Position numbers and translations under genes: made by a program. This document shows, in pieces, positions 5,270 to 20,151 of a stretch of DNA of 64,000 bases (position 1 is its first letter; each line of letters starts with the position of its first letter). The notes under the pieces are model-generated. The model was not told the origin of the DNA. It ran no database searches and was given only the letters and a program-made list of their open reading frames with translations. The stretch is from Paractinoplanes ovalisporus (GTDB lineage: Bacteria; Actinomycetota; Actinomycetes; Mycobacteriales; Micromonosporaceae), in assembly GCF_016834655.1 (NCBI RefSeq), contig NZ_JAENHP010000021.1, positions 62,001-126,000 on the forward strand. Direction: 5' to 3'.

Positions 5270-5340
5270 GCCGCTCTCAGCGTCAAAATCCGGCTGGGTG
5301 GTGGAGACCGGATCTACCCCACATACAAGATCAAAGTCTC

Positions 5341-5540
5341 GATGTCCCGGCTGGGCGGGTGGTATGGACCGTCGCTCCCGCGGGGGTCGGATCTGCCCAC
5401 ACACAAGATCAAGAGCCGGATGTCCCGGCTGGGTGGTGGGTGACGGACCGTCGCTCCCGCGGGGGTCGGATCTGCCCACACAAGATCAAGAGCCGATGTC
5501 CCGGCTGGGTGGTGGGTGACAGACCGTCGCTCCCGCGGGG
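5341..5540. repeat. ~78-bp direct tandem repeats downstream of dnaJ
   Basis: Units run from GATGTCCCGGCTGGG through a CCGTCGCTCCCGCGGG core to ACAAGATCAAGAGCCG. Full copies lie at about 5341-5418 and 5419-5494. A third starts near 5496 and leads into the inverted-repeat arm. A shortened, diverged copy at about 5290-5340 lacks the core. Copies differ by small substitutions and indels, so the array is not recent. Confidence 0.85.
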
Positions 5541-5612
5541 ACCGCGGCGGCTTTCGCTGGCCGCTGACGCGTCCAGAACGCGAAACCCACCACGGCGACG
5601 TGCGTGAGGGGT
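5484..5612 (+). repeat. Left arm of ~130-bp imperfect inverted repeat
   Basis: The reverse complement of this segment matches 6722-6850 over nearly its whole length with scattered mismatches. Shared blocks include CCGGCTGGGTGGTGGGTGAC, CCGTCGCTCCCGCGGGG and GCTGGCCGCTGACGCGTCCA. The first half is also the last unit of the neighbouring tandem array, so the element is a repeat family that occurs in both orientations. Confidence 0.85.
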
Positions 5613-5735
5613 CGCGCCATGCCCGCTGCGCGGTCATCCTCGTCCCCGCCCACCGCGGACGTGACCGTGCCGTCGTAGCGAGCCGGCATCGCCAGTCGCG
5701 AGCACGTGGCGGTGCCGTCGTCGTGAACTGATGCT

Positions 5736-5812
5736 GTCGGCGGGTCGGCGGGTCGGCGGGTCGGCGGGTCGGCGGGTCGGCGGGTCGGCGGGTCGGCGGG
5801 TCGGCGGGTCGG
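5736..5812. repeat. 8-bp microsatellite (GTCGGCGG)n
   Basis: About nine and a half uninterrupted copies of an 8-base unit (GTCGGCGG). As 8 is not a multiple of 3, every frame is read through, which explains the spurious long frames here. Copy number would be expected to vary by slippage. Confidence 0.95.
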
Positions 5813-5840
5813 TGGCTGTGCTGTCGTCGGCCGGCGTTTG

Positions 5841-5945
5841 CGGTCGCGGGTTCGTCGCTGTGCTGTCGTCGTGGGCTGGTGTTGTCGGTCGCGGGTTCGT
5901 CGCTGTGCTGTCGTCGTGGGCTGGTGTTCTTGATCGCGGGTTCGT
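5841..5945. repeat. 45-bp tandem repeat
   Basis: Two near-perfect copies start at 5841 and 5886 (CGGTCGCGGGTTCGTCGCTG...), and a truncated third at 5931 leads into the 187-bp repeat that follows. Confidence 0.85.
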
Positions 5946-6257
5946 GATCGAGCTCGAGCTGAACTTGGCACTGATCGGCCGGCGATGTCTGTGGATGGCG
6001 GCGGAAAAGTGTCGTACCTGGGTGCTGTACTCGTCCCCACCCAGTGACCGGGGTGGGGTGTCTAGCCGGGGCGTGGCGTGCGTCCGTGGGCGTTCTGTCG
6101 TCGGGAATCGGTGCTGTCGGCCGGGCGTCCGTGATCGAACTTGATCTGAAATCCGCGCTGGTCGGCAAGCGATGTCTGTGGATGGCGGTCGAAAAGTGTC
6201 GTACCTGGCTGCTGTACTCGTCCCCACCCAGTGACCGGGGTGGGGTGTCTAACCGGG
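5944..6257. repeat. Two-copy direct repeat with 187-bp period
   Basis: Bases 5944-6070 and 6131-6257 align at a constant offset of 187. Shared blocks include GATGTCTGTGGATGGCGG and CACCCAGTGACCGGGGTGGG, with substitutions concentrated in the first 40 bases. Each copy is followed by divergent sequence. Confidence 0.85.
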
Positions 6258-6420
6258 TCGAGCCGTCCAACCGGGTCGAGGCGTCCAACCGGGGCCCGGG
6301 CGTCCGACTGGGGCGGGGGTGCCGAACCAGGGGCATTCGGCCGCGGCTGGGCTGGGACGTCCAACCGGGGCAGGGCGTCCGACCGGGGACGGGGCGTCCG
6401 ACCGGGGGCGGAGGTAGGCG
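6251..6420. repeat. 18-bp tandem repeats decaying rightwards
   Basis: Units start AACCGGGTCGAGCCGTCC at 6251 and 6269 with one change. They then degenerate into GTCCAACCGGGG/GTCCGACCGGGG-like units up to about 6420, which suggests an old array whose left end is youngest. Confidence 0.75.
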
Positions 6421-6721
6421 GTCGAGGGGCGGCGCTCCAGGTCGGGTGGGATGGAAGCCCGGGCCTAACTAGGGTCGGCCGATCACGAGGGGCTGTGGCG
6501 TGGCCCAGGCGGCGACTGACGGCGTCCGAGAAACGACCATGTGCAACACAACGCCATGCGGCTGATCGCAGCCACCACCTGGACCTCGCCTCGCTTCCGC
6601 GCGATCGGCGGGGCGGGCGCCAAGCGGCAAGAGTGGACTTGGGGGCAGCTTCAACAGTCGCTGCCGAGGGCGGTCCGGTGTCTGGGGAACGGCCGTATCA
6701 GGCTGTTCGGGTTGAGCGTTG

Positions 6722-6850
6722 CCACTCATGCACGTCGCCTGGGTGGGTTTTGCGTTCTGGACGCGTCAGCGGCCAGCGAAACCCGCCCAGGCCCCCGCGG
6801 GAGCGACGGTCCGTCACCCACCACCCAGCCGGGACGTCCTGAATTTGATC
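6722..6850 (-). repeat. Right arm of ~130-bp imperfect inverted repeat
   Basis: Counterpart of 5484-5612 in the opposite orientation, ending AATTTGATCT at 6841-6850. The arms are separated by about 1.1 kb of other repeats and unique DNA. Confidence 0.85.
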
Positions 6851-7048
6851 TTCGAGAGAGCGCGAGAGAGCGCGAGAGCGCGAGAGACGGCGTGAGCGTG
6901 AAGAGACGGCGTGAGCGTGAAGAGACGGCGTGAGCGTGAAGAGACGGCGAGAGCGTGAGAGACGGGGAGAGCGTGAGAGACGGGGAGAGCGCGAGAGGCG
7001 GGGAGAGGGCGGGAGACAGCAAGAGGGCGGGAGACGGCGAGAGAGCAA
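6849..7048. repeat. Purine-rich GA-type tandem repeat tract
   Basis: About 200 bp in which the + strand is strongly purine-biased. It starts with GAGAGCGC units. From 6883 it runs as four 19-bp units starting at 6883, 6902, 6921 and 6940 (GAGACGGCGTGAGCGTGAA), then decays to GAGACGGGGAGAGCGT and GGGCGGGAGACAGCAA variants. It ends 10 bp before the 3' end of the DUF4241 gene. Confidence 0.9.
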
Positions 7049-9980: not shown

Positions 9981-10787
9981 TCAGGACGAGCGCACGGCGG
10001 GAACGGCGGCCGTCAATGACCAGTCGTGGCTGATGTCGGCGGCCGCCCGCAGCAGCTTGGGCAGGTGGTCCTCGACCAGGGTCTCGACCGAGGTCTCGGC
10101 GGCGTGGACGGTCACGTTGATCGCGGCCACCACCCGGCCGTCCCCGTCGCGCACGCCGGTGGCGATCGAGCGGATGCCGGGCGCGAGGTCCTGGTCGGCC
10201 AGGGCCCAGCCCTTGGCCCGCACCTCGCGCAGCGAGGCGTCGAGCTCGGCCGGCGTGGGCTGCCAGCGTGCGGTGATGCCCGAGCGGGACGGCTGGGCCA
10301 GCACCGCGGCCAGGTCGTCGGCGGGCAGCGCGGCCAGCAGCACCTTGCCCATCGAGGTGGCCGGGGCCGGGAAGCGGGTGCCGATGGTGACCGCCAGCGT
10401 GACGATCTTCGGGACGGCGACCCGGGCCACATAGACGATGTCGTCACCGTCGAGCTGGGCCATCGAGGACGACTCGTTGGTCTGCGCGACCAGCTTCTCC
10501 ATGTGGGGCCGGGCCACATCCCACATCGACAGGCTGTTCACGTACGCCATCCCGAGCTCGAGCACCCGCGGCGTGAGCGCGTAGCCCCGGCCGTCGGCCC
10601 GCACGTATCCCAGGGCCTCCAGCGTGATCAGGATGCGCCGCACGGTGGGCCGCGCGAGCCCGGTCTGACCGGCGATCTCGCTGAGCGTCATGGCCGGGGT
10701 GCCCGGACGGAATGAGCGCAGGACGTCGAGGCCGCGTGCCAGCGCCTCGATGAAGTCGGGCCCGGCGCCCCTTCCGATGTCGGTCAT
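9981..10787 (-). CDS. IclR family transcriptional regulator
   Basis: A 268-residue protein of the IclR/PcaR type. The N-terminal winged helix is GLDVLRSFRPGTPAMTLSEI with recognition region GLARPTVRRILITLEALGYV (residues ~15-62). The C-terminal ligand domain has the family pattern MAQLDGDDIVYVARV, FPAPATSMGKVLLAALP and GVRDGDGRVVAAINVTVHA. PcaR/PobR-like members control aromatic catabolism in response to pathway acids. It ends a same-strand run with the amidohydrolase (11-bp gap) and faces a ring-cleavage operon across the divergent promoter, so it is the probable regulator of that cluster. Confidence 0.92.
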   Translation of the reverse strand: MTDIGRGAGPDFIEALARGLDVLRSFRPGTPAMTLSEIAGQTGLARPTVRRILITLEALGYVRADGRGYALTPRVLELGMAYVNSLSMWDVARPHMEKLVAQTNESSSMAQLDGDDIVYVARVAVPKIVTLAVTIGTRFPAPATSMGKVLLAALPADDLAAVLAQPSRSGITARWQPTPAELDASLREVRAKGWALADQDLAPGIRSIATGVRDGDGRVVAAINVTVHAAETSVETLVEDHLPKLLRAAADISHDWSLTAAVPAVRSS

Positions 10788-10798
10788 GGAACGGGACC

Positions 10799-12184
10799 CT
10801 ACTTGGTGTACTGGTACGGGTTGTGCAGGATCCGGGCCTCGGGGATGTCCGGGTTCATGCCCTGCTTCCAGGCCTCTTCGCCCAGCGTCTCGCGCAGGTG
10901 GTCGATCGTGGCGTTCACCTTGGTCCGCGCGCCGGCCAGATCGGCGTCCACCAGCTTGCCGTCCCGCTTCACCGTCCGGCCGTCCACGACGACGGTGTGC
11001 ACGTCGCCCCGGGCTGCTTGGAAGACCACATGCCCGTACGGGTTGAGCACCGGGAACATGACCGGGGAGGCATCATTCTTGATCAGTACGACGTCGGCCT
11101 GGCGCCCCGGGGTGAGCGCCCCGATCGAGGAGTCCATGCCCAGCGCCTTCGCCCCGCCGCGGGTGGCCCAGTCGACGACCTGCTCGGCCCGCAGGTGGTG
11201 GTGGGTGACCGTCTCCTGCTTGCCGTGCGCCTCGAGGTGCTCGCGGGCCCGGTCGGCGCTGAGCGTGGTGCGCATCGCCGAGAACAGGTCCCCGCTCCAC
11301 CAGACGCTCGTGTCCATCGACAGCGACACCGGGATCCCGTGCCGGCGCAGCTGCCAGGTGGGCGGGTAACCCTGTCCCGCGCTCTGCTCGCTCTCGGTCG
11401 AGACCGACACCGAGCCGCCGCTGGCCGCGATCCGGTGGTAGGAGTCGCTGGAGAGCGTGGCCGCGTGCACATAGACGTTGCCCGGGCTCATGAAGCCGCT
11501 GTCGTGCATGAGCCGGATGCCGTCGTCGTTGGTCGCGCCCCACACCCCGGCGTGCGTGGTGACCGGGACGCCCAGTTCGCGGGCGACCTCGAACGCGGCC
11601 TTCTCGGGGAACGCCGGGTCACCGGTGACGTCGAACGCCATCTGGAAGCCGGCCAGCTTCCCGCCGTCGATGCGGCGGCGGTAGAACTCCTGGAACTGCG
11701 GCGACGTCGCCCATTCCCACGGTCCCTGTTGGATGTTCCCGTACGCGAGGACGAAGCGGCCCGGCACTGATTCGAGCGCGTCGACCGCGGCGTCGGCGTG
11801 GTCGGTGCTCTGCAGGCCGTGTGACCAGTCGACGGTCGTGGTCACGCCGGAGTCGATGGCCTCGAGCGCGCCGAGCAGGTTGCCGGCATGGATGTCCTCG
11901 GGCCGGAAGTGCTTGCCCGACTCGAGGTAGTACCAGACGAAGTACTGCGTGAGGGTCCAGTCGGCGCCGTAGCCCCGCATCGCGGTCTGCCACATGTGCC
12001 GGTGGGTGTCGACCATGCCGGGCATGAGGATGCCGCCGGAGGCGTCGATCTCCTCGTGACCGTCGGGCGCGGTCAGATCCGGCCCGATTTCGGCGATCTT
12101 GTCGTCGACGATGAGCACGTCGGCGTTTTCGAGCACAGTGTGCGAGTCGTCCATCGTCAGAACCAGGCCATTACGGAAGATCAT
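10799..12184 (-). CDS. Amidohydrolase family protein (cytosine deaminase/TrzA-like)
   Basis: A 461-residue metal-dependent hydrolase. The ATG at 12184 is chosen because GGAGAGGA lies just upstream and the protein begins with the usual MIFRNGLVLTMDD; the open frame extends much further upstream without coding character. The metal motif is VDTHRHMWQ (residues ~62-70; HxH). Downstream come THAGVWG, VHAATLS and SLSMDTSVWWSGD (metal Asp). The C-terminal β-sandwich closes with GRQADVVLIK and VVVDGRTVKRDGK. Family members deaminate or dechlorinate N-heterocycles and guanine-like substrates; the substrate here is unknown. It is likely co-transcribed with the IclR gene and divergent from the CoA-transferase operon. 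Confidence 0.88.
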   Translation of the reverse strand: MIFRNGLVLTMDDSHTVLENADVLIVDDKIAEIGPDLTAPDGHEEIDASGGILMPGMVDTHRHMWQTAMRGYGADWTLTQYFVWYYLESGKHFRPEDIHAGNLLGALEAIDSGVTTTVDWSHGLQSTDHADAAVDALESVPGRFVLAYGNIQQGPWEWATSPQFQEFYRRRIDGGKLAGFQMAFDVTGDPAFPEKAAFEVARELGVPVTTHAGVWGATNDDGIRLMHDSGFMSPGNVYVHAATLSSDSYHRIAASGGSVSVSTESEQSAGQGYPPTWQLRRHGIPVSLSMDTSVWWSGDLFSAMRTTLSADRAREHLEAHGKQETVTHHHLRAEQVVDWATRGGAKALGMDSSIGALTPGRQADVVLIKNDASPVMFPVLNPYGHVVFQAARGDVHTVVVDGRTVKRDGKLVDADLAGARTKVNATIDHLRETLGEEAWKQGMNPDIPEARILHNPYQYTK

Positions 12185-12206
12185 CGCCCATCCTCTCCTG
12201 GATTTC

Positions 12207-12236
12207 CGGACTGTTGTCCGCCCAGCGGTCAGTCCG
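12207..12236. promoter_or_regulatory. Inverted repeat in the amidohydrolase/CoA-transferase divergent region
   Basis: CGGACTG (12207-12213) and CAGTCCG (12230-12236) form a perfect 7-bp inverted repeat with a 16-base spacer, 23 bp upstream of the amidohydrolase start. It is a candidate IclR site; no consensus was used beyond symmetry and position. Confidence 0.4.
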
Positions 12237-12303
12237 AGTGGCGTCAGTGTGCTCCCGGCCACTTGCAGGGTCAATAGTTTGTTTCGGCTGTGTGAAGCGC
12301 CCG

Positions 12304-12332
12304 TTGACACGGGTGGTGCGACGTAGCACTCT
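12304..12332 (+). promoter_or_regulatory. Possible promoter of the catabolic operon
   Basis: TTGACA (12304-12309) is a perfect -35. CACTCT (12327-12332) follows after a 17-base spacer as a weak -10. It lies 38 bp upstream of the ATG of the CoA-transferase gene. Confidence 0.4.
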
Positions 12333-12370
12333 GATCGAGCGGACGAGTGTCCGCAGAACGGGCGGTACGC

Positions 12371-13501
12371 ATGACTGAGAACGGCCCACTCGCCGGCCTG
12401 CTGGTCGCGGACTTCTCCCGGATCCTCGCCGGGCCGTACGCGACGATGCTCCTGGCCGATCTCGGCGCGACGGTGGTCAAGGTGGAGGGGCCGTCCGGCG
12501 ACGACACCCGCACCTGGATGCCGCCGGTGCGGGACGGGGTCTCGACGTACTACCTGGGCATCAACCGCAACAAGCGGTCGATCGCGCTCGACCTCAAGAA
12601 CGACGCCGACCTGGCCGACGCCCGGGAACTGGCCCACCGCGCCGACATCATGATCGAGAACTTCCGGCCGGGCGGGCTCAAGCGGTTCGGGCTCGACTAC
12701 GACACGGTGGCCGCCGCGAACGAGAAGATCGTGTACGCGAGCATCAGCGGCTTCGGCACCGGCGAAGGGGCCGGGCTGCCCGGGTACGACCTGATGGTGC
12801 AGGCCATCTCCGGGCTGATGAGCCTCACCGGAGACGCGGACGGATCCCCGTACCGGGCGGGAATCTCGGTCTTCGACGTGATGGCCGGCATGCACGCCAA
12901 CATCGGCATCCTGGCCGCCCTGCACCATCGGACCCGGACCGGGCGGGGGCAGCACGTCGAGGTCAACCTGCTCAGCTCCGCGCTCTCCGGGCTGGTCAAC
13001 CATTCCAGCGGGTTCGTGGCCGGCGGCACCATCCCGTTCCGCATGGGCAACGCGCATCCGAGCCTTTTCCCGTACGAACCACTGCCGACCGCCGATGGCG
13101 AGCTGATCGTGATCGCGGGTAACGACGGGCAGTTCCGCAAGCTGTGCCAGGTGCTCGACCTGCCGGGTCTGCCCGACGACCCACGCTTCGGGCGCAACCA
13201 GGACCGCACGGCCAACCGGGAAGAACTCCGCCCCATTCTGGTCGAGCGGCTCTCCCGCCGTACGAAGGACGAATGGTTCTCCGACCTCATCGCGGCCGGC
13301 GTCCCGTGCGCGCCCATCAACACGATCGACGGCGGCGTCGCGTTCGCCGAGAAGGTCGGGCTCGACCCCGTCGTCACCACCGGCGGCGTGCCCGGCATCC
13401 GCAACCCCATCACCTTCAGTGAGAGCCGGCCGCGGTACGAGCTGCCGCCGCCCGGCCTGGACGAGCACGGCGAGGAGATCCGTAAGTGGCTGAGGAGCTA
13501 G
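12371..13501 (+). CDS. CaiB/BaiF family (type III) CoA-transferase
   Basis: A 376-residue type III CoA-transferase. It starts with the family signature GLLVADFSRILAGPYATMLL, then DLGATVVKVEGPSGDD (catalytic-Asp region follows). It continues with YYLGINRNKRSIALDLK, IENFRPG, GYDLMVQAISGLMSLTG and RTGRGQHVEVNL. The enzyme moves CoA between carboxylic acids through an aspartyl-CoA thioester. The ATG at 12371 is preferred; a GTG at 12347 is possible, and neither has a strong Shine-Dalgarno. It is first in a five-gene operon and overlaps the citryl-CoA lyase-like gene by 16 nt. Its likely role is to activate an intermediate for the lyase that follows (inference). Confidence 0.92.
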   Translation: MTENGPLAGLLVADFSRILAGPYATMLLADLGATVVKVEGPSGDDTRTWMPPVRDGVSTYYLGINRNKRSIALDLKNDADLADARELAHRADIMIENFRPGGLKRFGLDYDTVAAANEKIVYASISGFGTGEGAGLPGYDLMVQAISGLMSLTGDADGSPYRAGISVFDVMAGMHANIGILAALHHRTRTGRGQHVEVNLLSSALSGLVNHSSGFVAGGTIPFRMGNAHPSLFPYEPLPTADGELIVIAGNDGQFRKLCQVLDLPGLPDDPRFGRNQDRTANREELRPILVERLSRRTKDEWFSDLIAAGVPCAPINTIDGGVAFAEKVGLDPVVTTGGVPGIRNPITFSESRPRYELPPPGLDEHGEEIRKWLRS

Positions 13502-14265
13502 CGTTTCCGACCGGCCTCGGCACGTCGACGCCCGAGACCATCTCGCTGCTGGGGCAAGACCTCGCGGCCGACCTGATGGGGAAGGTGGGCTTCGGCGAGC
13601 TGGCGTTCTGGCTGGTCGCCGGGCGTCGTCCCACGGCCGGTGAGGTACGGGTCTTCGAGGCGGTGCTGGTGGCGCTGGCCGACCACGGATTCACGCCGAC
13701 GGCGATCGCGGCCCGCCTGACCTACCTGTCGGCGCCCGATTCGCTGCAGGGCGCGATGGCGGCCGGGCTGCTCGGGGGCGGGTCACGGTTCCTGGGCGTG
13801 ACCGAGGACTGTGGACAGTTTCTCGCCCGGACCCTGGTCGAGGCCGGCACCGAGCGGGACTACGACGTGATCGCTCTGGAGGCGGTCCGTCAGGCCAAGG
13901 CCGCCAAGCGTTTCATCCCGGGCCTGGGTCATCCCGTTCACAAGGACCAGGATCCCCGTACGCCGGTGCTTCTCCGGATCGCTGAGGAGGAAGGCCTGCG
14001 CGGGCCGCATCTGCGGTTGTTCGAGGCGATCGGGCGCGTGCACCCGTCCGTACTCGGGAAGCGGTTGCCTTTGAACGGGGCCGGCGTGTGCGGTGCGGCG
14101 CTGGCCGACCTGGGGCTCCCGACCGACCTGCTCCGGGGGTTCGCGTTGCTGGCGCGGGCGGCCGGGCTGCTCGGCCAGATCGCCGAGGAGCGGCGCAATC
14201 CCATCGCCATGGACATCTATCGCACCGTCGACCGTAATGCCGTTTACGAGCCCCGGAAGGATTGA
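13486..14265 (+). CDS. Citryl-CoA lyase-like protein (citrate synthase fold)
   Basis: A 259-residue protein related to the C-terminal half of citrate synthase and to ATP-citrate lyase, where it cleaves citryl-CoA. Seen: MGKVGFGELAFWLVAGRRPT, a catalytic-loop GLLGGGSRFLG, PGLGHPVHKDQDPRTPVL (residues ~144-161; the conserved His of the GHxVxKxxDPR motif) and a C-terminal EERRNPIAMDIY with the catalytic Asp. It is too short for full citrate synthase (~370-430). Start is GTG at 13486, overlapping the CoA-transferase end. Together the two suggest activation of a hydroxy-acid followed by retro-aldol release of a short acyl-CoA (inference). Confidence 0.82.
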   Translation: MAEELAFPTGLGTSTPETISLLGQDLAADLMGKVGFGELAFWLVAGRRPTAGEVRVFEAVLVALADHGFTPTAIAARLTYLSAPDSLQGAMAAGLLGGGSRFLGVTEDCGQFLARTLVEAGTERDYDVIALEAVRQAKAAKRFIPGLGHPVHKDQDPRTPVLLRIAEEEGLRGPHLRLFEAIGRVHPSVLGKRLPLNGAGVCGAALADLGLPTDLLRGFALLARAAGLLGQIAEERRNPIAMDIYRTVDRNAVYEPRKD

Positions 14266-14268
14266 GGC

Positions 14269-15141
14269 ATGGCCAGCATCGTCGCGGTCATCGCGTCCAC
14301 CCACCACCCGTTCTACTACCGCGCCTCGACTTCGACGGGTGAGGACCGCCCGCCGTTCGCCGACGAGTGGACCCGCAAGATCCTGGCCTTCCGCGAGACT
14401 CTGACCCGGGCCAACCCCGACGTGCTGGTGATGGTCGGCTCCGACCACTTCCACCAGCTGTGGCTCGACAACATGCCGCAGTTCCTGGTCGGCAAGGCGC
14501 CCTTCTACGACGCCAACTGGTACAACGAGGAACGCGAGTTCGGCCTGCCCCGCATGCTGCTCAAGGGCCAGGAAGACCTCTCGGCGCACATCCTGCGGGC
14601 CGGCCTCGACGACGGATTCGACCTGGCGTTCAGCAACGAGCTGCGCATCGACCACAGCATCACCTGCCCGATCATCACGCTGCGGCCCGAGGCCGACCTG
14701 CCGATCGTGCCGATCTACACCAACATCTTCGCGCCGCCGCTGCCCCAGCCGTCCCGCTTCGTCAAGCTGGGCGAGTCGATCCGGCGCATCGTCGAATCGT
14801 GGCCGTCGCACCTGCGGGTGGCGGTCATCGGGACCGGGCACCTGTCGCTCGAGCTGGGCGGCCCCCGGCAGTTCGGCCCGCACGGCCCCGACCCCGAGTT
14901 CGACCGGCGGGCCGTCGAGTGGATCGCGACCGGCGACCTCGACAACTGCCTGCGCGAGGTGACCCTGGACAGCCTGCACTCGCCCGGCAACGCCACCCAC
15001 GGGTTCATGGATTTCATGCTGATGATGGGTGTGGCCGGCGCCGGAGCGAAGGCCGATTACGTGGACACGCTCGACCTGTTCCACACGATGGAGGCCTACT
15101 TCACCTGGTACCCCTCCTCGTCGTCCGGAGGTTCGCTGTGA
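14269..15141 (+). CDS. Extradiol ring-cleavage dioxygenase, LigB-type catalytic subunit
   Basis: A 290-residue class III extradiol dioxygenase (LigB/DODA fold). Candidate iron ligands are in STHHPFYYR (residues ~10-18), VGSDHFHQLW (~58-67) and IGTGHLSLELGG (~187-198); NATHGFMDFML near the end carries another conserved His. The enzyme opens catechol-type rings next to one hydroxyl using Fe(II) and O2; protocatechuate, gallate and related substrates are known for the family. The ATG at 14269 follows GGATTGAGGC, and its stop overlaps the start of the LigA-type gene by 4 nt (GTGA), so the two are translationally coupled, as subunits usually are. Confidence 0.88.
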   Translation: MASIVAVIASTHHPFYYRASTSTGEDRPPFADEWTRKILAFRETLTRANPDVLVMVGSDHFHQLWLDNMPQFLVGKAPFYDANWYNEEREFGLPRMLLKGQEDLSAHILRAGLDDGFDLAFSNELRIDHSITCPIITLRPEADLPIVPIYTNIFAPPLPQPSRFVKLGESIRRIVESWPSHLRVAVIGTGHLSLELGGPRQFGPHGPDPEFDRRAVEWIATGDLDNCLREVTLDSLHSPGNATHGFMDFMLMMGVAGAGAKADYVDTLDLFHTMEAYFTWYPSSSSGGSL

Positions 15142-15500
15142 GCAAGTATCTGCTGAACAAGTTCCTCTACACAGTGGACCGCGACCCCGACCTCGTGGAG
15201 CGATACCGCGCCACGCCGGCCGAACTGGTCACGTGGTGGGAGGACTCGCGCGCGAACATGGTGCTGAACTGCCTCACCGGTGAGGCCAGCACGTGGTTGC
15301 GCTTCACCGACGAGGAACGTACGGCGCTGATCGCGCACGACCACGTCAAGCTGTTCGAGCTGGGCGCCCACCCGTTCCTGACGCTGACGCTGTTCATCGC
15401 CATGTTCGAGCGCGACAACACCGAGCCGTTGGAGTACCAGAAGGCGTACGGTGCCCGGATGGCCCACTTCAACCTGCCCTACCCGGACATAGCCACATGA
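15138..15500 (+). CDS. Extradiol dioxygenase, LigA-type small subunit
   Basis: A 120-residue helical protein matching the LigA α-subunit family. It starts SKYLLNKFLYTVDRDPDLVE, followed by a TPAELVTWWE turn and GAHPFLTLTLF, the C-terminal packing helix. In protocatechuate 4,5-dioxygenase this subunit caps the LigB active site. The GTG at 15138 is supported by the GTGA overlap with LigB; the gene ends in an ATGA overlap with the next one. Its separate presence shows this is a true LigAB-type heterodimer and not a single-chain DODA enzyme. Confidence 0.88.
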   Translation: MSKYLLNKFLYTVDRDPDLVERYRATPAELVTWWEDSRANMVLNCLTGEASTWLRFTDEERTALIAHDHVKLFELGAHPFLTLTLFIAMFERDNTEPLEYQKAYGARMAHFNLPYPDIAT

Positions 15501-16456
15501 TTCCCGCGGCCGTGCTGCGGGTGTGCGGTCGCCCGCCGTCCATCGAGGAGAGGCGGCCGCCCGTCCCCCACGCGGGCGAGGTCCCGATCCGCGTCGTGGC
15601 GGCGCCGATCACCCCGCTCGACCTGCTCTGCGCGTCGGGCACAAGCTACTTCGGACAACCCGCGACCCCGTACGTACCCGGGGTGCAGGGAGTCGGCCAT
15701 CGCGAGGACGGCACACCGGTCTGGTTCGCGACGTCCGCCGGGATGCGTCCAGGTGACGGCAGCATGGCCGCCGAGGTCGTCATCCCGTACGTGGATGTGG
15801 TCCCCCTGCCCCCATCGGCGCCCCTGCCCCTGATCGCGGCCCTGGGTTTGTCGGCGGTGGCCGCACATGCCGCCCTGACCCGAACCGGCGGCCTGGCTGC
15901 GGGCGAGGTGGTCGTGGTGCTCGGAGCCGGCGGGGTGGTCGGCCAGGCCGCGATCCAGCTGGCCCTGCTCGGCGGCGCATCCCGGGTGATAGCGGTGTCC
16001 CGCTCGGCGGCGGCCCTCGACCGCGCCCGCTCACTGGGCGCGGTGGAGACCGTGCAATTGTTGCCGTCCGACGACCCGGTTTCCCTGGCTTCCCGGTTGC
16101 AGGCGGTCGCGGGTCTGGTTGATCTCGTGCTGGACCCGGTCTTCGGCGTGCCCGCGGCGGCCGCTCTGCGGGTGCTGCGTCCCGGCGGCCGCCTGGTCAA
16201 TCTGGGCAGCTCAGCCGGCGCAACCGCCCCATTGGACTCGGCAACGCTGCGCAGTGGTTCGCTGAAGATCCTGGGTTACACCAACAACGGCCTGTCGGTG
16301 GGCGAGCGGGCCGACTCCCTCGGTGTGGTGGCCGCCCACGCCACCGAGGGCAACCTCACCGTCACACACGAGGTCGTGCCGTTCGCCGACGTGGCCACCG
16401 GCTGGACACGCCAGTCGGCTGGAGAGGCCGACGGCCGGATCGTGCTGGCTTTCTGA
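15497..16456 (+). CDS. MDR-family zinc-independent oxidoreductase (quinone oxidoreductase-like)
   Basis: A 319-residue medium-chain dehydrogenase/reductase. The GroES-like half (residues 1-~115) lacks the structural-zinc Cys cluster. The Rossmann half carries VVVLGAGGVVGQAAIQLALL (residues ~137-156, NADP loop), then VIAVSRSAAALDRARSLGA and LRPGGRLVNLGSSAG. The ATG at 15497 overlaps the LigA stop by 4 nt (ATGA). As last gene of the ring-cleavage operon it may reduce an unsaturated or oxo intermediate after ring opening; this rests on context only. It is convergent with the 423-codon gene downstream. Confidence 0.85.
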   Translation: MIPAAVLRVCGRPPSIEERRPPVPHAGEVPIRVVAAPITPLDLLCASGTSYFGQPATPYVPGVQGVGHREDGTPVWFATSAGMRPGDGSMAAEVVIPYVDVVPLPPSAPLPLIAALGLSAVAAHAALTRTGGLAAGEVVVVLGAGGVVGQAAIQLALLGGASRVIAVSRSAAALDRARSLGAVETVQLLPSDDPVSLASRLQAVAGLVDLVLDPVFGVPAAAALRVLRPGGRLVNLGSSAGATAPLDSATLRSGSLKILGYTNNGLSVGERADSLGVVAAHATEGNLTVTHEVVPFADVATGWTRQSAGEADGRIVLAF

Positions 16457-17866: not shown

Positions 17867-18063
17867 TTACCGCCGGCTGGTCCCGCCAAGCCGCAGGCTT
17901 GCCGCTCAGGCCCCTGGTCATGTTCGCAAGACCGCTCGAACTCGCCATCGCTGCGGGAGTCGGCGACACCATAAGGGACGCGCCGCTTGGCGGCGGTCAA
18001 TAGCAGGAAGGGGCGATCTCGTCTAGCGGCCAAGCTGTGAACCGGAGATATCGGCGAGAGTGA

Positions 18064-19146
18064 TCACTTATCGCTGGATGATGCTTGCTTTTCAACCGGC
18101 CATTCGAACATCCATTGAAGCCAGGATACTTGTGAGATTCGAGAGGGGACGTGTCCGGTCCAGACTTCTGTGGCGATGGTGACCGCCGACCCGAGCACGG
18201 CCGGCCACATGTTGGATGACACTAGGCTGCCGACAAGGCCGGTCCCGGCGGTCGCAATACTGCTGGCTCGTTCGAGGCGGTCATAGCCTCGGACGTTGGC
18301 CGGCAGCTTCAGCTTGGCGCTGAGCTCGCGCAGCGACTCTCGGCTGACGGAACCGGGCGAGCGAAGTTCGGTGAAGCCTTCGCTCCGAACATGACCACGC
18401 GCTTCGTGCAGCATGCTCGTGAACCAATCCTCATCGCGGCCCCGTGCCATAAGCGCGATCGATGGACCGAGTCTGAACGGGATAGTTTTCAGTACGCCGT
18501 TGGCAGGTGCTTCTGATCGATGCAGGAATTCGAAGGACTGCTTACCGCGGATCGGGTGGGTCAGATAATAGCCACCGTTCGCCCGTTCGGCGTAGATCAG
18601 GTATTTCAGAACGAGGTCGACCAGGTAGAGCACCTGTTCGGAGCTTGCGCCGATGCTATGCAGAATGCGCTCCGTGTGCCTGTTCGCAACCAGGGACGGC
18701 AGGTCAAAGACGTGATGACTCCCCGCGTCTCCAGATCTGTGTTGAGTCTGCTTTGCTATCCAGCGGGATTCGTGCACACTCAAAAATCCTCGAACATCTC
18801 GGGCGTTGGCGGCCACGAAAGCCGCGAACTCCGCCAGAATGGGATCGAGCAGGTCGGGCACGAGTACTCTGTGCCCAACTGATGGTGCAAGATCCAATAC
18901 GAGCCAGCCTGGATCTCGTCGCTGAAGGTCAGTGAGAATTTTTGGTGTCGCAGTGGTGTCATCGATGCTGGAAACGCCGGGTGGGACCGCTACCGGGCAC
19001 TTGACTTGGTCGTGCCAGATGATGAGGTCGACGAAGTCGGCGACAAGTCTCTGGCCCCATGGATCAGGCGGCCCTGATGTGAATAATGATTGAATGGCGT
19101 TGACGGTAGTCAGATCAAATTGGGGCGTCTTGGTGTGGTGTTCCAC
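18064..19146 (-). CDS. Hypothetical protein of atypical composition
   Basis: A 360-residue protein with no recognised family. The gene has visibly lower GC and more A/T-ending codons than all neighbours, which suggests recent acquisition. Seen: an N-terminal region with FADFVDLIIWHDQVKCPVA-like pattern (residues ~36-54), HESRWIAKQTQHRS near residue 127, and a C-terminal hydrophobic stretch GTGLVGSLVSSNMWPAVLGS (~300-320) that could be a membrane or amphipathic segment. The start at 19146 is GTG with a weak ribosome site, so the N-terminus is uncertain. It is flanked by the sigma remnant and the intact sigma gene. A phage or defence-type cargo role is possible but unsupported. Confidence 0.65.
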   Translation of the reverse strand: MEHHTKTPQFDLTTVNAIQSLFTSGPPDPWGQRLVADFVDLIIWHDQVKCPVAVPPGVSSIDDTTATPKILTDLQRRDPGWLVLDLAPSVGHRVLVPDLLDPILAEFAAFVAANARDVRGFLSVHESRWIAKQTQHRSGDAGSHHVFDLPSLVANRHTERILHSIGASSEQVLYLVDLVLKYLIYAERANGGYYLTHPIRGKQSFEFLHRSEAPANGVLKTIPFRLGPSIALMARGRDEDWFTSMLHEARGHVRSEGFTELRSPGSVSRESLRELSAKLKLPANVRGYDRLERASSIATAGTGLVGSLVSSNMWPAVLGSAVTIATEVWTGHVPSRISQVSWLQWMFEWPVEKQASSSDK

Positions 19147-19341
19147 GATTTCCGCCTTATGATCGCCGCATAGCCTTATCGCTGATGATATGCGACCCGG
19201 GCAACAGATTACAGGGCGGCGGAGCTCGGTACTTGCGACCGTTGCCGATTTCGCGTCTGCCCCTCCCTCCGTAATTCATCATCGAATCCGCCGTTAAGGA
19301 CAGGTTCCGGTCTGTGGATCGAGGAACGATGACCGGTTCTG

Positions 19342-20151
19342 TTACAGGGGCAGGATCTCCAGCTCTCGCAGGCGGTCTTGGTTGGTTACGGCGTTCAGGG
19401 CTGTGATCCGGCCGTCGGTCACGGTGATGGTCACGACCAGCATGGTGTCGTCGTGGGGGGCGACCCGGATGCCCAGCTCGCCGTTGATGAGGGCCGGGTA
19501 GGCGCCCTGCGCGCGGCCCAAGTAGAACTGCGCGACGTCTCGGGCTCCGTGCATCTCGGTCGGCAGGTCGAGGTACTGCTCGTCCATGCGCAGGTGGACG
19601 TCGGGGTCGAGGAGGCTCAACAGGGTCTCGAAGTCGCCGTCTCGGGAAGCGGCCAGGAAGGCGTCCACGATTTCGCGGCCGGCGGGACGGTCGGCGGGCT
19701 GGGAACGGACCCGGCGGCGGGCTCGGCTGGCCAGCTGGCGGGCCGCCGAAGGGGAGCGGCCAACGATGGGGGCCACCTCGTCGAACGGGACCGCGAACAA
19801 GTCGTGCAGCACGAAGGCCAAGCGCTCGGCGGGAGTCAGGGTCTCCAGGACGACCAACAGGGCCAGGCCTACCGAGTCGGCCAGCAACGCCTCGTCCTCG
19901 GGGGTGTGGGCGGTGGGGGACTCGGTCAGGGCGGTCTCGCGGCGGGACGTCCGGGAGCGCAGCATGTCGAGGCAGACGCGGCCCACGACCGTGGTCAGCC
20001 AGGCGTCGACGTTGTCGATGTGCTCGGAGCCGGTGCGGTTGAGGCGCAGCCAAGCCTCCTGTACGGCGTCCTCGGCCTCGGCGGTTGAGCCGAGCATGCG
20101 GTAGGCGACCGCGCGCAAGCGGGGGCGGGCTGCCTCGAAACGCTCTTCCAT
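19342..20151 (-). CDS. ECF sigma factor with SnoaL-like C-terminal domain (SigJ/ECF41-like)
   Basis: A 269-residue ECF sigma. Region 2 is AVAYRMLGSTAEAEDAVQEAWLR-like (residues ~15-37) and region 4 is LTPAERLAFVLHDLFAVPFD with SPSAARQLASRARRRV (~104-148). Residues ~158-269 form a SnoaL/NTF2-like tail beginning IVDAFLAASRDGDFETLL and ending NQDRLRELEIL, akin to the NPDKL end of ECF41 proteins. I do not see the WLPEP linker motif of classical ECF41. In such proteins the tail modulates activity in place of an anti-sigma factor. It is divergent from an AhpD-like gene whose promoter region matches the group's consensus. Confidence 0.9.
   Translation of the reverse strand: MEERFEAARPRLRAVAYRMLGSTAEAEDAVQEAWLRLNRTGSEHIDNVDAWLTTVVGRVCLDMLRSRTSRRETALTESPTAHTPEDEALLADSVGLALLVVLETLTPAERLAFVLHDLFAVPFDEVAPIVGRSPSAARQLASRARRRVRSQPADRPAGREIVDAFLAASRDGDFETLLSLLDPDVHLRMDEQYLDLPTEMHGARDVAQFYLGRAQGAYPALINGELGIRVAPHDDTMLVVTITVTDGRITALNAVTNQDRLRELEILPL

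Follow-up and report, generated by a model that had tools for sequence, protein, structure and literature searches.

The 64,000-nucleotide stretch of Paractinoplanes ovalisporus DNA analyzed here (contig NZ_JAENHP010000021.1, positions 62,001 to 126,000; hereafter the window) carries, at window positions 9981-16456, a cluster of seven genes that looks like an aerobic ring-cleavage pathway, apparently an undescribed means of degrading an oxygen-rich aromatic of plant type; at least two of its enzymes should not carry their database names. Two of the genes lie on the minus strand. One encodes an IclR-family regulator resembling PcaR/PcaU/PobR (9981-10787; PF01614/PF09339, IclR_C at E=2.6e-35; TIGR02431 at 273.3 bits, slightly under the cut-off of 284.75). 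The other encodes an amidohydrolase of the PRK08204 type, here AmdH (10799-12184; Amidohydro_1 at E=1.5e-30; NF006056 at 410.3 bits, cut-off 391), with an HxH/H/H/D metal site but no deaminase glutamate, which we propose to be a lactonase or hydratase. A divergent intergenic region (12185-12346, assigned to no strand), presumed from its position in the sequence to contain the promoter and operator, separates these from five plus-strand genes. They encode a type III CoA-transferase, CoAT (12347-13501, with an alternative ATG start at 12371; CoA_transf_3, PF02515, E=1.2e-110); CitL, a protein of the citrate synthase fold annotated as citryl-CoA lyase (PRK06224.1-5; 13486-14265; NF004868 at 295.2 bits, cut-off 193); a non-canonical LigB-like catalytic subunit (14269-15141) directly followed by a divergent LigA-like small subunit (15138-15500); and an accessory quinone-oxidoreductase-like dehydrogenase, MDR (15497-16456; ADH_zinc_N, PF00107, E=4.2e-17; TIGR02824 at 72.5 bits, under cut-off). 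Consecutive plus-strand genes overlap by 16, 4 and 4 nucleotides, with one gap of 3 nucleotides. The initial annotation, made from the DNA alone, had described a tightly coupled five-gene operon divergent from an amidohydrolase-IclR pair, and its coordinates, overlaps and gap are exactly reproduced; the gene families it named hold at the level of the fold by Pfam and NCBIfam. Its view of one co-selected operon that combines ring-cleavage-type genes with CoA activation, and that corresponds to none of the standard gene sets for protocatechuate or gallate, also stands.

The same reading had been made to depend on the genes recurring together in other genomes, and this they do. A scan for LigB relatives with one genome per species gave 492 stretches, the best 80 of which were kept for synteny analysis; the counts refer to the 68 of these loci that are at least 19 kb long, the 12 shorter ones being left out, and LigB is present in all by construction. 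Every one of the 68 has CoAT, CitL and LigA no more than 6.5 kb from LigB, with AmdH additionally near it in 66, IclR within the same distance in 65 and the full set of seven genes in 59. In the 30 distant long loci, with LigB less than 91% identical, CoAT, CitL and LigA are retained without exception and AmdH in 28; as a control, each of eight other genes of the window was found in none of these 30 and in 0 to 15 of the 38 closer loci. The association of the genes goes beyond chance. The operon, shared with many actinobacteria of soil, is present across Micromonosporaceae, Streptosporangiaceae, Pseudonocardiaceae, Nocardioidaceae and other families, and among the best 80 stretches the nearest named match to the window LigB, at 98%, comes from Paractinoplanes lichenicola. 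In a sample of the class, CitL was detected (E<=1e-40) in 49 of 394 actinomycete genomes, and 30 of the 394, the window's own included, have CoAT, CitL and a ring-cleavage gene side by side; across the phylum, 14 of 198 genomes have a protein that scores above the cut-off of CitL's NCBI subfamily.

The grouping recurs in alphaproteobacteria, where CitL, CoAT and LigB-LigA stand together on plasmids of Aminobacter, Sinorhizobium and Martelella and on a plasmid of Neorhizobium sp. EC2-8, with CoAT split across two open reading frames (ORFs) in the last. In the first three genera LigB is 63-66% identical to that of the window, as against 33-35% for CoAT and 38-42% for CitL, which suggests that this association was assembled, or diverged, separately. 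A scan of viral contigs with a rhizobial LigB returned no relatives. MetE-like proteins (PF01717) occur beside ring-cleavage or CitL genes at L084:11959-12984, L165:2261-3409 and L129:8766-9857; the copies of Aminobacter L084 and actinomycete L165 are 70% identical, and that of L129 was recognized by eye. The protein of L084 annotated as belonging to the uroporphyrinogen decarboxylase family ('UroD') is in fact MetE-like, and the annotation was rejected.

LigB has the fold its name implies: it matches PF02900 (E=1.1e-23), it is closest in sequence to LigB and DesB, and its structural model superimposes on the gallate dioxygenase DesB with Z 20.4 (root-mean-square deviation 3.7, 257 residues aligned), on LigAB with Z 19.0 and, with lower scores, on MhpB and the 2-aminophenol dioxygenases. 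In LigB-family enzymes His12, His61 and Glu242 presumably make up the 2-His-1-carboxylate iron site, and we take His195 to be catalytic. When the iron site is compared by sequence alignment, His12, His60 and His129 are found in 115 of 115 proteins, as in DesB and LigAB, but the canonical His195 position (Leu194 in the window) is Leu in all 115, with a His three residues earlier, and the canonical Glu242 position (Gly245) is Gly in all 114 that cover it, preceded by a His (His244). By this alignment LigB lacks both the 2-His-1-carboxylate site of class III extradiol dioxygenases and the catalytic His195; its iron site may be altered, possibly to a three-histidine type. The small subunit is likewise divergent: the window copy of LigA reaches only E=0.097 against PF07746, although that profile recognizes 18 of the 21 members of its family at E<=1, with a best value of 4.3e-9; a profile search of PDB with the small-subunit alignment gave a best E of 0.29.

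A comparable loss is seen in CitL, which shares with citryl-CoA lyase, ATP-citrate lyase and citrate synthase the fold (PF00285, E=3.2e-21) and the GxGH motif, but lacks their catalytic Asp and active-site His. Its alignment with the citryl-CoA lyase 6hxp (9e-28) is gapless around both motifs, the Asp of N-V-D-G being replaced by Ala (N-G-A-G) and the His of S-A-H-G-G by Phe; these positions we take to correspond to the catalytic Asp375 and to His274 of citrate synthase. The Asp is absent from all 140 homologs covering the position (Ala in 130 of 130 close ones; Ser in six, Thr in three and Ala in one of ten distant ones) and the His274 equivalent from 140 of 141 (Phe in 127 and Tyr in four of 131 close ones; His in one of ten distant ones), whereas the His of GxGH (His149) is kept in 140 of 140 covered. 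Distant homologs from other genomes, L102 and L104, retain both Asp and His and serve as a positive control. CoAT, in contrast to CitL, keeps what is expected of its family, namely the type III CoA-transferase fold and Asp148, presumably the catalytic Asp of these enzymes, in 123 of 123 covered; its solved relatives include succinate--hydroxymethylglutarate CoA-transferase (7e-80). AmdH belongs by sequence to the TRZ/ATZ amidohydrolases (TrzN, AtzA and the SAH/MTA deaminases) and all 113 proteins compared have the metal ligands of that group (HxH, H, H and D), but not the Glu of the deaminase H-x-x-E motif, which we take to be the catalytic Glu three residues after the strand-5 His: this position holds another residue in 112 and a gap in one, with Val in 107 of 107 close sequences and Pro (three), Thr (two) or the gap in the six distant ones. 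AmdH was accordingly rejected as a deaminase.

A clue to the substrate comes from an exchange of the dioxygenase, which we assessed within this operon family. Among 54 regions selected by similarity to CitL (six of eleven from one set, without L125 and L128-L131, and all 48 of the others), 35 have an adjoining CoAT, and these carry LigB(A) in 25 cases, an intradiol dioxygenase in eight, both in none and neither in two; of the last two, L171 stops directly behind CitL, and the contig that carries L124 measures 6.4 kb. AmdH accompanies 24 of the 25 LigAB and all eight intradiol loci, AmdH and IclR being missing in L165 only through a contig end (7.3 kb). The remaining genes are alike in the two versions: identity to the window proteins is 59-70% for IclR, 67-72% for CoAT and 62-75% for CitL in the intradiol loci, and 60-77%, 62-83% and 60-79%, respectively, in the LigAB loci, while AmdH is 69-74% identical in seven of the eight intradiol loci. 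The eight intradiol proteins all keep Tyr, Tyr, His and His, presumably their iron ligands; those of L121 and L122 match PF04444 and PF00775, and the closest solved relatives of the L121 enzyme are PnpC and the hydroxyquinol 1,2-dioxygenases. In a quick tree built from CoAT together with CitL (56 rows, including 20 chosen from the 80 LigB-found loci, with Shimodaira-Hasegawa-like approximate likelihood ratio support only) the intradiol label takes five changes, all forced by starred branches. The exchange is also seen between L202 and L203, which have IclR, an MhpA-like FAD hydroxylase, a C-C hydrolase, AmdH, CoAT and CitL in common and differ in the dioxygenase, intradiol in the one and LigAB in the other; in L175, a LigAB of the kind seen in L084-L087 (66% and 46% identical to the window's) is paired with a window-type CoAT and CitL. 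MDR occurs in 17 of the 25 LigAB loci as against none of the eight intradiol loci (Fisher p=0.0009).

On chemical grounds, extradiol and intradiol cleavage should give one and the same product only if the bond cut joins two hydroxylated carbons, as in a vicinal triol. The exchange thus suggests that the cut bond lies between two hydroxylated carbons, and as the substrate it favors a polyhydroxybenzene over a heterocycle. The intradiol product, for its part, is probably not plain maleylacetate, as no maleylacetate-reductase-like gene was found in any of the 54 regions (searched at E<=1e-5 with an iron-containing alcohol dehydrogenase of the host); among the best 80 of the 492 LigB-found stretches there is one such gene, about 7 kb away in L069. 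The query is itself part of a 647-residue ORF on another contig of the host (L226:7186-9129), in which an iron-containing alcohol dehydrogenase part like that of maleylacetate reductases (PF25137/PF00465) is fused to an intradiol dioxygenase part (PF04444/PF00775), with an FAD monooxygenase-like gene adjoining; the locus apparently encodes a fused hydroxyquinol-type pathway. The host probably degrades hydroxyquinol in the ordinary way by a separate system, since the dehydrogenase part of the fused ORF has no relative in the 54 regions.

From the operon, its conservation, the dioxygenase exchange and the residue losses we infer a substrate, and with it every reaction and product that follows. 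We tentatively propose that the operon breaks down an easily oxidized polyhydroxybenzene, by way of a C6 dicarboxylate, to acetyl-CoA and oxaloacetate; 1,2,3,5-tetrahydroxybenzene (THB) is the best candidate because it combines in one ring the pyrogallol pattern suited to a LigAB-type enzyme and the hydroxyquinol pattern suited to an intradiol enzyme. LigB-LigA, or elsewhere the intradiol dioxygenase, would open the THB ring to 2,4-dihydroxymuconate or its lactone, a cut between C2 and C3 yielding the 2,4-dihydroxymuconate that is 2,4-dioxoadipate after tautomerization. AmdH, as a metal hydrolase, would open the lactone or hydrate the product to give 2,4-dioxoadipate, from which CoAT would form a CoA thioester, and CitL would then split the hydrated beta-keto thioester in a reaction of the retro-Claisen type into oxaloacetate and acetyl-CoA. 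Hydrated at its 3-keto group, 2,4-dioxoadipyl-CoA would resemble citryl-CoA, and the altered residues of CitL would agree with another mechanism; oxaloacetate and acetyl-CoA are the usual ligands of the citrate synthase fold. The IclR regulator would sense either the substrate or one of the intermediates, and MDR might hold the polyphenol, or else the Fe(II) enzyme, in its reduced form.

Several observations speak for this proposal: the co-conservation of the genes, their recurrence in alphaproteobacteria, the exchange counts, the DesB-like fold of LigB, and the presence, upstream in L085, L202 and L203, of an MhpA-like FAD hydroxylase and a C-C hydrolase like 2,6-dihydroxypseudooxynicotine hydrolase, to which the L085 protein is closest. 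Genes that may handle quinones are also found in the neighborhoods, namely MDR itself, NAD(P)H/FMN reductases in the rhizobial clusters and DoxX-like proteins in L121, L123 and L126 (PF07681 for L123), and these fit an autoxidizing substrate. In one Rhizobium leguminosarum/johnstonii lineage CoAT and CitL are replaced, next to LigB-LigA, by a gene of the fumarylacetoacetate hydrolase family (PF01557, 7.6e-44), whose best curated match, far under cut-off, is 2,4-didehydro-3-deoxy-rhamnonate hydrolase, and by an alpha/beta hydrolase weakly like 3-oxoadipate enol-lactonase (7.9e-11, under cut-off). This swap is as expected for a 2,4-dioxo acid intermediate.

Other observations weigh against it. 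The rhizobial swap is confined to one lineage. The LigB model has a mean predicted local distance difference test score of 64, is poor at the active site, and was used to exclude no fold, and, given the lost canonical residues, ring cleavage by LigB is itself a presumption. The loss of the Asp in CitL argues against lysis generally, and not just of citryl-CoA. The argument from a common product assumes that both types of dioxygenase feed the same downstream enzymes; given that MDR accompanies LigAB alone, the two versions may yield different products. The Aminobacter cluster L084 has no AmdH and contains a MetE-like protein and a CocE-type hydrolase, and in L085-L087, L202 and L203 AmdH is only 32-35% identical to that of the window. 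Furthermore, CoAT and CitL may together form a module of general use, and certain genes near relatives of CitL, considered below with gallate, suit a tricarboxylate better.

If CoAT-CitL is such a module, it would serve several ring-cleavage products, the LigAB, intradiol, VOC and acyl-CoA ligase loci would degrade different compounds, and the dioxygenase swap would mark a change of substrate. We regard this as unlikely. It would account for the restriction of MDR to LigAB loci, for the nine of the 54 regions (L183, L185, L191, L193, L194, L196, L198, L199 and L208) in which a CitL of 63-78% identity adjoins an acyl-CoA ligase without CoAT, and for the proximity of CoAT-CitL to VOC proteins in L090 and L124. 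It sits less well with the likeness of IclR, CoAT, CitL and, in seven of eight cases, AmdH between intradiol and LigAB loci, as five changes of the dioxygenase with the remainder unchanged are more easily explained by one substrate. Some of the regions with CitL and an acyl-CoA ligase also have, nearby, VOC proteins and a protein recognized by eye as maleylpyruvate-isomerase-like. A further cluster, L130:6467-16220, contains distant versions of CoAT (35%) and CitL (39%) along with an FAD monooxygenase-like gene, a molybdenum-hydroxylase subunit and a thiamine-diphosphate-enzyme-like gene, recognized by eye; it is perhaps another ring-cleavage route that uses the CoAT-CitL module.

Gallate, too, is a vicinal triol, so that LigAB and intradiol cleavage would yield one product from it as well, namely 4-oxalomesaconate (OMA). 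AmdH would hydrate this to 4-carboxy-4-hydroxy-2-oxoadipate (CHA), and CoAT and CitL would convert the latter to acetyl-CoA and oxalopyruvate, replacing the usual aldolase; the logic is that OMA is a tricarboxylate like aconitate and CHA a citrate analog. The OMA hydratase LigJ is an amidohydrolase-superfamily enzyme, the regulator of the operon is PcaR/PobR-like, and LigB is nearest to gallate dioxygenase in fold and to LigB and DesB in sequence. Near some relatives of CitL lie genes for aconitase (L128), LeuC/LeuD (L204), LeuD (L085), TcuA/TcuB (L131) or a TcuA-like protein (L205). Against this, citryl-type lysis should require the very Asp and His that CitL has lost, the operon offers no obvious enzyme to take oxalopyruvate further, and the L121 intradiol enzyme resembles the hydroxyquinol dioxygenases, which act on carboxyl-free rings. 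We therefore consider a gallate route doubtful. The operon also differs from the OMA pathway of DesB/LigAB in that none of its seven genes encodes an RraA aldolase or a hydratase of the PIG-L or Amidohydro_2 kind by Pfam. The CHA aldolase (LigK/GalC) of gallate and protocatechuate 4,5-cleavage has no match among the seven proteins by Pfam and NCBIfam, and a conventional LigK/gallate route within the operon was rejected on that ground; a single LigK-like gene lies on a different contig of the host, at 287.9 bits, under the cut-off of 304.5.

The initial annotation had favored a scheme in which an N-substituted aromatic or heterocycle loses its amino group or chlorine through AmdH, its ring is then opened by LigAB and the product reduced by MDR, and CoAT and a citryl-CoA-type lyase split it to acetyl-CoA and a keto acid. 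Its appeal lies in the membership of AmdH in the ATZ/TRZ-type group, in the LigB fold of the 2-aminophenol dioxygenases and in L130, where a molybdenum-hydroxylase subunit and an FAD monooxygenase-like gene join distant CoAT and CitL. Each of its distinctive steps nevertheless runs into difficulty: the hydrolytic deamination with the missing Glu of AmdH, the citryl-CoA-lyase-type splitting with the missing residues of CitL, and the obligatory reduction with MDR, which is dispensable, being missing from all eight intradiol and from eight of the 25 LigAB loci. The enzymes that replace LigAB are, moreover, intradiol dioxygenases of the catechol/hydroxyquinol type, and we consider the scheme improbable. 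More improbable still is a variant of the hydroxyquinol pathway without maleylacetate reductase, in which hydroxyquinol would give maleylacetate, CoAT would activate it and CitL would split it to maleate and acetyl-CoA: the hydroxyquinol-1,2-dioxygenase-like L121 enzyme and the lack of a maleylacetate-reductase-like gene in the 54 regions would suit it, but on chemical grounds an extradiol LigAB cannot make maleylacetate from hydroxyquinol, and the host already has the separate locus with the fused dehydrogenase and intradiol parts. The plain hydroxyquinol/maleylacetate route was rejected as the principal interpretation, LigAB being unable to make the product and a maleylacetate-reductase-like gene being absent nearby.

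The THB proposal remains the one we prefer, and it has points of contact with two known systems. With the pathway of hydroxyquinol (1,2,4-trihydroxybenzene) the operon family shares the intradiol dioxygenase of eight of its 35 CoAT-CitL loci, that of L121 being nearest the hydroxyquinol type, but there the intradiol gene is accompanied by CoAT and CitL, with a maleylacetate-reductase-like gene in none of the 54 regions. A fungal central pathway through THB was reportedly described by Martins et al. in 2024. The proposed substrate and the proposed lactone stage of our scheme are like those of the fungal route. For that route a review notes that 5-hydroxydienelactone has been proposed and assigns ring opening to a DUF-domain protein (PMC12388069), in which it differs from the operon; a 2026 paper still describes the THB central pathway as apparently confined to fungi (PMC13094099). 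A literature search, with subscription journals mostly outside its reach, found no description of these genes as a set, nor of a THB pathway in bacteria to which genes have been assigned.

Elsewhere in the window, several short tandem arrays lie at 5309-7046, between the DnaJ gene and the one that follows, among them an array of an 8-bp unit in 9.6 perfect copies (5736-5812) and one of a 76-bp unit in three copies (5309-5540). The block 18001-20000 has a G+C content of 0.62, as against 0.67-0.74 in the remaining 2-kb blocks. None of the 68 long related loci, each extending some 10 kb to either side of LigB, contains a match to the ORF at 18064-19146, which may thus be a recent arrival.

Databases credit the operon genes with activities for which the active sites give no support. 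The fullest form of our proposal, which we advance as a conjecture more likely to fail than to hold, is that THB is the hub of a central pathway in bacteria, with a LigB dioxygenase of altered site that has been repeatedly exchanged with an intradiol enzyme, and with a retro-Claisen cleavage of 2,4-dioxoadipyl-CoA by a CitL devoid of the Asp and His. If true, the operon family would amount to a natural experiment, with two unrelated iron dioxygenases taking each other's place within one operon, and the citrate synthase fold would acquire a second reaction, a retro-Claisen split new for that fold. Bacteria, in turn, would gain a central pathway of polyphenol degradation that the 2026 paper still regards as apparently confined to fungi.

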